A stretch of DNA of 64,000 nt from Noviherbaspirillum pedocola (GTDB taxonomy: Bacteria; Pseudomonadota; Gammaproteobacteria; Burkholderiales; Burkholderiaceae_D). A program made the position numbers and the translations under genes. The notes beneath the pieces are model-generated. The model saw only the letters and a program-made list of their open reading frames with translations. It did no database searches and had not been told where the DNA came from. Of this stretch, positions 18,331-19,145 are shown piece by piece. The stretch lies in the NCBI RefSeq assembly GCF_016632335.1, contig NZ_JAEPBG010000001.1:992001-1056000 (forward strand). Direction: 5' to 3'. The stretch's first letter is position 1; every line of letters begins with the position of its first letter.

Positions 18331-19041
18331 ATGTCCCAGCTCTGGCAGGCCCGTTTCTTCACTACCGTCAATCATCTGCGCGATCTGCCGAAGACGCAGG
18401 TTCCCGAAATCGCCTTCGCCGGCCGCTCGAACGCGGGCAAGTCCACTGCGATCAATGTGCTGTGCAATCAGAAAAAGCTTGCGTTCGCGTCGAAGACGCC
18501 AGGCCGCACGCAGCACATCAATTTCTTTTCGATAGGCGGCGCCCATGTTGGCCAGCATCGCAAGGATGAAACCCGCGTCGATGAAATCCGCGCGCTGCTG
18601 GTGGATTTGCCAGGCTATGGCTACGCGGAAGTGTCCGGTGACGCGAAGATTCACTGGCAGAACCTGCTCGGGGACTACGTCGCGCGGCGCGAGCAGTTGG
18701 CAGCGCTGGTGCTGATCATGGATGCGCGCCGCCCGTTCACTGAGCTCGACGTCCAGATGCTCGAGTGGTTCGCCCCGACCGGCAAGCCCATTCATTGCCT
18801 GCTGGCCAAGGCCGACAAGCTCAATCGCAACGAATCGACGAATGCGCTGCGCGAAACACGCGCCGTGCTGTCGAGCTATGCGATGCCGGATGGCTCGCCC
18901 TACCCCGCGACGGCGCAACTGTTTTCGGCATTGAAGCGCACCGGGCTCGATGAAGCCACCGAGAGAATCGAGGCGCTATTGCACTTGAACGAGCCGCAAG
19001 CGTCGGCATCTGAAGACGAGTCCGCTGAAGGCCAGTCATAA
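18331..19041 (+). CDS. engB: Ribosome biogenesis GTPase YsxC/EngB
   Basis: EngB is a TRAFAC GTPase needed for large ribosomal subunit assembly. The 236-residue product has the P-loop GRSNAGKST (31-39), switch region [12 protein letters not shown]3 [10 protein letters not shown] and G4 KADKLNR. The C-terminal tail is acidic ([10 protein letters not shown]). A TACAAT (18278-18283) upstream could be its -10, with no clear -35. Confidence 0.95.
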
Positions 19042-19074
19042 AAAAACCCTGGAGAAAGGGGAGTATCTCCAGGG
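19040..19074 (-). terminator. Strong minus-strand rho-independent terminator
   Basis: A 9-bp perfect stem with a 10-base loop is followed on the minus strand by seven T (19040-19046 on plus read as A). It begins at the last bases of engB. In the plus direction the stem is preceded, not followed, by the A/T run, so it fits minus-strand transcription better than engB termination. Confidence 0.75.
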
Positions 19075-19145
19075 TAGTAACGCCTCATCGTTAGGAACGA
19101 TAGGCCCCGCTCAGGGAGGAGAAGCGGGAGGCACTTGACGCACCT
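19040..19145 (-). ncRNA. Candidate small RNA with C-rich loops, antisense to the engB-hemB gap
   Basis: The minus strand carries three hairpins in a row and no gene. First, a 6-bp stem (19123-19128 with 19106-19111) shows TCTCCTCCCTG in its loop, an anti-Shine-Dalgarno type motif. Second is a 6-bp stem (19096-19101 with 19087-19092). Third is a 9-bp stem (19066-19074 with 19047-19055) followed by seven T, a textbook terminator. No minus-strand gene lies between it and prx 2.4 kb away. The layout resembles CcsR-type and other Hfq-dependent RNAs with C-rich loops. I see no clear promoter, so transcription is inferred. Confidence 0.4.

Follow-up and report, generated by a model that had tools for sequence, protein, structure and literature searches.

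The DNA between engB and hemB in the stretch analyzed here (the window; 64,000 nucleotides from Noviherbaspirillum pedocola) encodes on its minus strand a member of an RNA family that is already known, anti-hemB (RF02837). An Rfam 15 cmscan of the whole window placed the match at 19038–19131 with 62.0 bits (cut-off 49.5), and the alignment covered the full model, positions 1–81 of 81. The RNA lies upstream of hemB and on the opposite strand, which is the location that characterizes anti-hemB. We think it likely that this is a gene with its own promoter, that its product of about 106 nt would act in trans by masking ribosome-binding sites, probably aided by Hfq, and that it would be an orthologue of ErsA, ancestrally under envelope-stress control. 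The first-pass annotation had proposed a small RNA on this strand, and the proposal is supported by the Rfam match, by covariation, by conservation, and by the published expression of the family in Burkholderia cenocepacia. The features of the locus are as follows.

15241–17418, minus strand: resB, part of the conserved neighborhood (Pfam).
17444–18100, minus strand: two-domain cytochrome c, labeled c4-like by judgment, part of the conserved neighborhood (Pfam).
18331–19041, plus strand: engB, ribosome-binding GTPase, tail-to-tail neighbor of the RNA (Pfam MMR_HSR1; the gene name is a judgment).
19038–19145, minus strand: predicted transcript of about 106 nt (RF02837 match 19038–19131; match to our model R1, 19038–19150).
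19040–19075, minus strand: intrinsic terminator with a 10-bp stem, ACTCCCCTTT in the loop, and seven T.
19082–19105, minus strand: variable middle hairpin (RNAfold and alignment).
19106–19128, minus strand: C-rich hairpin CCCGCT-TCTCCTCCCTG-AGCGGG with an anti-Shine-Dalgarno loop.
19129–19145, minus strand: 5' hairpin AGGTGC-GTCAA-GTGCCT, only the last three bases of which lie inside the Rfam model.
19151–19155, minus strand: sigmaE-like −10 element TCATA, after a spacer of 16 nt.
19172–19178, minus strand: sigmaE-like −35 element TGAACCT.
19224–20240, plus strand: hemB, head-to-head neighbor (Pfam ALAD; the start was chosen, the frame being open from the ATG at 19152).

Gene order in the window is resB, c4, engB, RNA, hemB, and the U-tract of the RNA overlaps the engB stop codon (19039–19041). 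This U-tract was used to define the 3' end of the predicted transcript; the 5' end at about 19145 was placed from the promoter spacing and from the 105 nt of ncS04, the anti-hemB RNA of B. cenocepacia. The RNAfold structure, at −40.1 kcal/mol, comprises the C-rich hairpin with loop UCUCCUCCCUG, another hairpin, and the terminator stem; dinucleotide shuffles gave −24.6 (sd 2.9) kcal/mol (z −5.26; none of 200 as good). The minus strand from 19040 to 19145 reads as described in the first-pass annotation, except that the three hairpins counted there are four, the first being at 19129–19145. The terminator was correctly seen as a 9-bp stem with seven T (10 bp when the tract's first U is counted as paired) and a C-rich loop, and sequence and RNAfold agree on the anti-Shine-Dalgarno C-rich loop of the hairpin that had been read as the first. 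Because the terminator loop has 10 nt, above the limit of 8 in a simple terminator scan, the terminator was unlisted there. A hairpin of 11 pairs, with T-rich sequence after it, also lies at 19288–19317 on the minus strand, in the first part of the hemB coding sequence.

The structure is conserved among relatives. CCTCCC was found at the C-rich loop in all 60 loci compared and CTCCTCCC in 52 of them; the hairpin itself is nearly frozen, with six of seven counted pairs invariant over the 57 rows of alignment A1 (57 of the 60 loci, L097, L124, and L128 having been dropped). Of the 60 loci, 56 have CCCCTT or CCCCTC in their 3' part, counted from base 41, its placement in the terminator loop being by eye; it was missing from three loci of Burkholderia type (L083, L084, and L110) and from L128, and at that position the terminator loop of the Rfam RF02837 consensus is U-rich. 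A 5' hairpin of at least six pairs, no more than one base from its position, occurred in 54 of the 60 loci versus 7.7% of single-letter shuffles. Five pairs were seen in three other loci, and by the same rule none in the three of Burkholderia type. All six pairs of this hairpin changed on both sides in alignment A1, with 89.9% of cells paired. For the whole structure (57 rows), 14 of 22 pairs changed on both sides and 96.9% of cells were paired; double-changed cells numbered 175, versus 54.9 (sd 8.2) in shuffles, none of 500 being as high, and slid versions of the structure paired at 34–51%. The 5' hairpin, which lies outside the Rfam model, appears from the alignment to be a new element of the anti-hemB RNA. 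If it is taken as the 5' end, the RNA would have about 106 nt, nearly the length of ncS04 (105 nt).

That this element merely terminates leftward transcription, with no regulatory role, would fit the quality of the terminator and its tail-to-tail position with engB, but we give that reading hardly any weight. A minus-strand client is absent for about 2.4 kb, as the first-pass annotation had claimed, the nearest ORF judged to be a gene being at 21447–22085. Moreover, the invariant loop, the covarying 5' hairpin, and the conserved upstream motif exceed the needs of a terminator, and for the related ncS04 a transcript has been mapped, according to the accessible part of PMC5688073.

Expression of the family has been demonstrated in print for this relative. 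In the accessible part of the same paper, ncS04 is the anti-hemB RNA of B. cenocepacia J2315, 105 nt long and seen on northern blots, with its 3' end mapped by RACE and dRNA-seq and no significant change by qPCR in seven conditions; Hfq binding is credited there to an earlier study. The available text of PMC4603805 lists this RNA, between two genes directed opposite to it, as co-purified with Hfq, and that of PMC3521395 lists anti-hemB for B. pseudomallei. The parts available of these three papers give no function for it. The window RNA agrees with the Burkholderia RNA in its full-model match over the cut-off, its location and direction between engB and hemB, and its length (about 106 nt predicted, 105 nt reported). 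It differs in having a sigmaE-like promoter and, in the terminator loop, a second C-rich motif; that motif is missing from L083, L084, and L110, all of Burkholderia type, which have by eye the sigma70-like sequence TGGTATAT. The window's own genome (G000) holds a second RF02837 match, of 29 bits, at C12:377026–377101 on the plus strand (L002:1501–1576). It has a CCCTCC-loop hairpin and a terminator, is not matched by RF02278 at E values up to 1, and lies 3' of an ORF that we guess from its translation to be membrane phosphatase-like.

Within the order, RF02837 matches over the cut-off were found in 245 of 399 sampled genomes, and within the taxonomic family in 100 of 195. Counts at E ≤0.001 (299 and 156, respectively) were set aside because matches to another C-rich-loop family, RF02278, occurred among the weak places: of 13 weak second RF02837 places, five passed the RF02278 cut-off and three more matched that model below it. 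A control with 14 known genomes gave three sub-threshold RF02837 matches and none over the cut-off. hemB was present in 29 of the best 30 loci of the order and in all 29 further loci of the family, and engB in 28 of each set; one locus (L107) had engB on the RNA's own strand and no hemB. A covariance model of the kind suggested in the first-pass annotation was built from the same gap in relatives (R1; 57 loci, all from this order). Of 80 named HemB loci, 53 gave an R1 match, always upstream of and opposite to hemB, at no more than 350 nt from the HemB match in 51 and at about 1.5 kb in two Hydrogenophaga loci. Positives included Paucimonas, Burkholderia, Paraburkholderia, Caballeronia, Pandoraea, Cupriavidus, and several Comamonadaceae, and also Dechloromonas, Gallionella, Sideroxydans, Nitrotoga, and a nitrosomonad. 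R1 gave no match in the other 27 HemB loci, among which are those of a Janthinobacterium bin, Polynucleobacter, Achromobacter, Delftia, Comamonas, and Methylophilus as well as six that come from two gammaproteobacterial bins and from Xanthomonas, Marinobacter, Alloalcanivorax, and Marinomonas. In relatives with the engB-hemB order, the hairpins and the loop motif are conserved in both the Rfam-model and the R1 searches. Tandem copies also occur: four successive R1 matches in each of two genomes (L239/L255 of G750 and L260 of G857), two RF02837 matches over the cut-off in G234 (L189), and two R1 matches in G686 (L279).

Other RNAs with C-rich loops were compared with the window RNA. The likeness to the cuckoo (CcsR) and Neisseria sibling RNAs pointed out in the first-pass annotation holds as a resemblance of mechanism but not as family membership. 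Both ar14/CcsR (RF02344) and NmsR (RF02877) share C-rich anti-Shine-Dalgarno motifs with it, but ar14 scored 26.3 bits against a cut-off of 58.8 and NmsR was unlisted at the place; the arrangement differs as well, CcsR being in an operon with ccaF1 and the NmsRs in tandem in the accessible parts of their descriptions. The Betaproteobacteria toxic small RNA or double-hairpin family (RF02278) likewise has an anti-Shine-Dalgarno loop and a terminator, and some of its members are weakly cross-detected by RF02837. It differs in being 57–92 nt long in B. cenocepacia, with several dispersed copies; there is none in the window, and the window RNA gave no match to it at its place (cut-off 50 bits). Double-hairpin RNAs are expanded in the genus of the window's genome. 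That genome has 21 RF02278 matches, 10 over the cut-off and five of these on contig C6 (examples of matches are C6:25640–25698, C6:25833–25891, and C6:49404–49462); three congeners have 11, 12, and 15, and two Burkholderia-type genomes 4 and 6. One double-hairpin RNA (L183:153–237, minus strand, 73.8 bits) gave a further match, of 39.1 bits against a cut-off of 52, to NmsRb (RF02877), a hint that RNAs with C-rich loops may form a larger superfamily.

The R1 search of 143 genomes of the GTDB class gave matches in 46, of which 44 were outside the order; 41 of the 44 had one match and three had two. We examined 46 of these 47 outside-order matches (the 47th is a tandem neighbor inside L279) by searching the flanks to about 2.5 kb with the window's EngB, HemB, cytochrome c4, and ResB and with PolA from one locus. 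The locus is conserved: 40 of the 46 places adjoin at least one of engB, polA, c4, and resB, and 39 adjoin engB or polA, a nearness that a randomly chosen position in a genome of 3 Mb would show, by an arithmetic estimate only, in well under 1% of cases. R1 is blind to genes, in that it holds no neighbor information. engB was 3' and opposite in 29 places, with the alignment running into the RNA in three more; polA was 5' and in line in 26, PolA being beside 29 overall. The match ran in the reverse direction in L287 and L295. None of the neighborhood genes was found at six places (L267, which is near a contig end, L274, L282, L289, L300, and L303), and HemB was found beside none of the 46. The engB side is common and the other neighbor varies, which speaks against hemB as the conserved partner, and on this comparison the name anti-hemB looks accidental.

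These neighborhoods bear on the idea of an action in cis, by which a divergent antisense or promoter-interference element at hemB would tune heme synthesis. The RNA adjoins and opposes hemB in nearly all of the order and family loci read, and the available text of PMC6321483 has hemB as a predicted target of the Hfq-copurified RNA Bc7, which may or may not be anti-hemB. However, transcription of the predicted RNA would begin about 80 nt before the chosen hemB start and proceed away from the gene, outside the order HemB was found beside none of the 46 places and PolA beside 29, and in the two Hydrogenophaga loci the RNA is about 1.5 kb from the HemB match. We regard action in cis on hemB as quite improbable.

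The first-pass annotation found no clear promoter; a site does lie upstream, but it is sigmaE-like and not of the sigma70 type. A sigma70 scan of 16000–22000 gave two sites, both on the opposite strand, and none on the RNA strand at the locus. The window site is TGAACCT (19178–19172), 16 nt, and TCATA (19155–19151), with a C in the −35 element where most loci have T; the E. coli sigmaE elements given in the accessible part of PMC2893595 are GGAACTT (−35) and TCAAA (−10). The promoter-like motif is conserved. [GTC][GA]AACTT, 16–17 nt, TCnnA occurs upstream of the 5' hairpin in nearly all loci not of Burkholderia type, and in 55 of 56 loci by pattern, a count that is in-sample and selected by that pattern. 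A promoter matrix was built after L083, L084, L110, and L128 had been set aside, and L097 was additionally dropped when the matrix was applied to the named loci, to 28 hand-picked loci, and to the 46 places outside the order. This order-trained matrix reached at least 12 bits in 31 of those 46 places, compared with 0.22% of single-letter shuffles, and 26 of the 31 sites were 26–35 nt before the R1 match. Among the 53 named loci, which share lineages with the training set, 24 reached that score (0.24% of single-letter shuffles). In 11 of the 24 (5 Paraburkholderia, 3 Pandoraea, and 3 Cupriavidus) the −10 element lies within a sigma70-like TATCAT and the sigmaE reading is ambiguous; in the other 13 it is unambiguous. 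Some named loci were wrongly anchored in the scan, and L003, with GAAACTTTT...TCTGA by eye, was counted as a miss. The hand-picked set, which includes L229 of the same order, gave 15 of 28 (0.25% of single-letter shuffles).

No sigmaE-like site was found in the Comamonadaceae loci read or in two Burkholderia and one Caballeronia named loci; the latter three carry TGGTATAT instead, by eye like an extended sigma70 −10. Such a sigma70-like sequence in Burkholderia-type loci would fit the flat expression of ncS04. With rpoE promoters as a yardstick, the matrix gave a p ≤0.03 against single-letter shuffles upstream of rpoE in only 8 of 18 genomes, and the best such site in the window's own genome differs in position from that in congeners. 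A strict pattern, GGAACTT-N16/17-TCTKA, was rejected as a regulon finder, with 4 matches in six genomes versus 11 for the reversed control. From the promoter-like motif we infer that the RNA may be controlled by sigmaE.

Both the promoter type and the locus recall ErsA, which in the available texts of PMC8575079 and PMC5819304 is encoded between polA and engB and is sigma22-dependent. The window RNA has the engB side of this locus, with hemB in place of polA, and some of the outside-order R1 places are weak Rfam matches to RF01719 (Pseudomon-1/ErsA), RF02232 (sX13), and ar14. RF01719 was found in 13 of 369 class genomes, over the cut-off in one (L238, 121 bits). R1 overlapped 12 of these 13 matches (E ≤0.017) and was blind to L238, the sole true ErsA locus; in whole-genome scans the two models marked the same place in both genomes that were positive for both. 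engB was beside 11 of the 13, and at L238 tblastn did not place it within about 4 kb. PolA adjoins the RNA in L238, L231, L233, and L237, and the ErsA gene at L238 is downstream of polA, where the promoter matrix scored 13.7 bits. ErsA resembles the window RNA in its published polA-engB locus, its C-rich terminator loop, and its sigmaE-like promoter. It differs in lacking, at L238, the CUCCUCCCUGAG hairpin and in being 132 nt long in print; RF01719 (cut-off 50 bits) was absent from a cmscan of 18500–19700 up to E 1, and the window's genome has no RF01719 match.

A second comparison is with sX13. As described in the accessible part of PMC3771888, sX13 is downstream of polA, was found by its authors only in Xanthomonadaceae, and represses, independently of Hfq, through C-rich apical loops that act on G-rich motifs of ribosome-binding sites. 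RF02232 was found in 15 of 369 class genomes, three over the cut-off. R1 overlapped 11 of the 15 matches (E ≤0.056), the three true sX13 loci with only 15.6–18.4 bits, and in genomes positive for both R1 and weak RF02232 the place was the same in one of four (G662; not G601, G644, or G702). The window RNA did not reach the RF02232 cut-off (50 bits). sX13 shares with it the C-rich loops, a place beside polA in print, and weak R1 matches at the same place, and differs in its Hfq independence and in the matrix scores of 4.5–5.3 bits at the three true loci, which have no sigmaE-like site.

Convergence of unrelated RNAs on the same locus, which would imply nothing about sigmaE or envelope stress, could explain why R1 misses the true ErsA and scores the true sX13 poorly; C-rich hairpin-terminator RNAs are common, and the weak Rfam cross-matches include RF02278, NmsRb, and ar14. 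We consider convergence unlikely, however, because R1 matches are mostly one per genome (41 of 44), fall at the same locus (40 of 46), and have the same promoter-like motif (31 of 46). Common descent of the anti-hemB RNA and ErsA is probable on these comparisons. We lean, with less assurance, toward a broader proposition, that RF02837, RF01719, and RF02232 represent one ancient RNA gene, situated at polA/engB in beta- and gammaproteobacteria and encoding an envelope-stress RNA with C-rich loops under sigmaE control, and that its promoter was swapped to a sigma70-like one in Burkholderia and Comamonadaceae. Such a swap would explain the constitutive-looking ncS04.

For the proposed trans-acting orthologue of ErsA, transcription from an envelope-stress promoter (steady in Burkholderia) would yield a free-standing RNA of about 106 nt, whose near-invariant loop UCUCCUCCCU would pair in trans with G-rich ribosome-binding sites of target mRNAs. 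The second C-rich motif, in the terminator loop, may assist pairing, and pairing would lower target translation, probably with help from Hfq, which co-purified with the RNA in the relative as reported there. We infer this pairing from the loop sequence and from RNAs that have been studied experimentally. A scan of 12 genomes for AGGGAGGAG-N4-10-ATG gave 28 matches versus 6 for the reversed control, an excess to be read knowing that a Shine-Dalgarno-like sequence is expected before ATG anyway; two of the 28 were the RNA gene itself (L209 and L210). Of the 14 matched places that were read, from four genomes of the genus, four precede open frames of more than 100 amino acids and 10 frames of at most 63; no gene recurred by eye among them, and the scan yielded no target.

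In the open literature searched, with subscription papers mostly outside it, there was no record of a link between anti-hemB and ErsA or sX13. Three things are new here: the predicted 5' hairpin, the promoter-like site, and the indications that the RNA shares its locus and probably its descent with ErsA. The position, structure, and promoter type of the RNA are like those of ErsA, and its ancestral role would therefore be post-transcriptional control in envelope stress. If true, the link would join family entries that are now separate, and would bear on the question, raised in the accessible part of PMC3771888, of whether the polA loci of other bacteria encode such RNAs. An RNA of many betaproteobacterial lineages would also gain a function open to testing and, in envelope stress, a signal.
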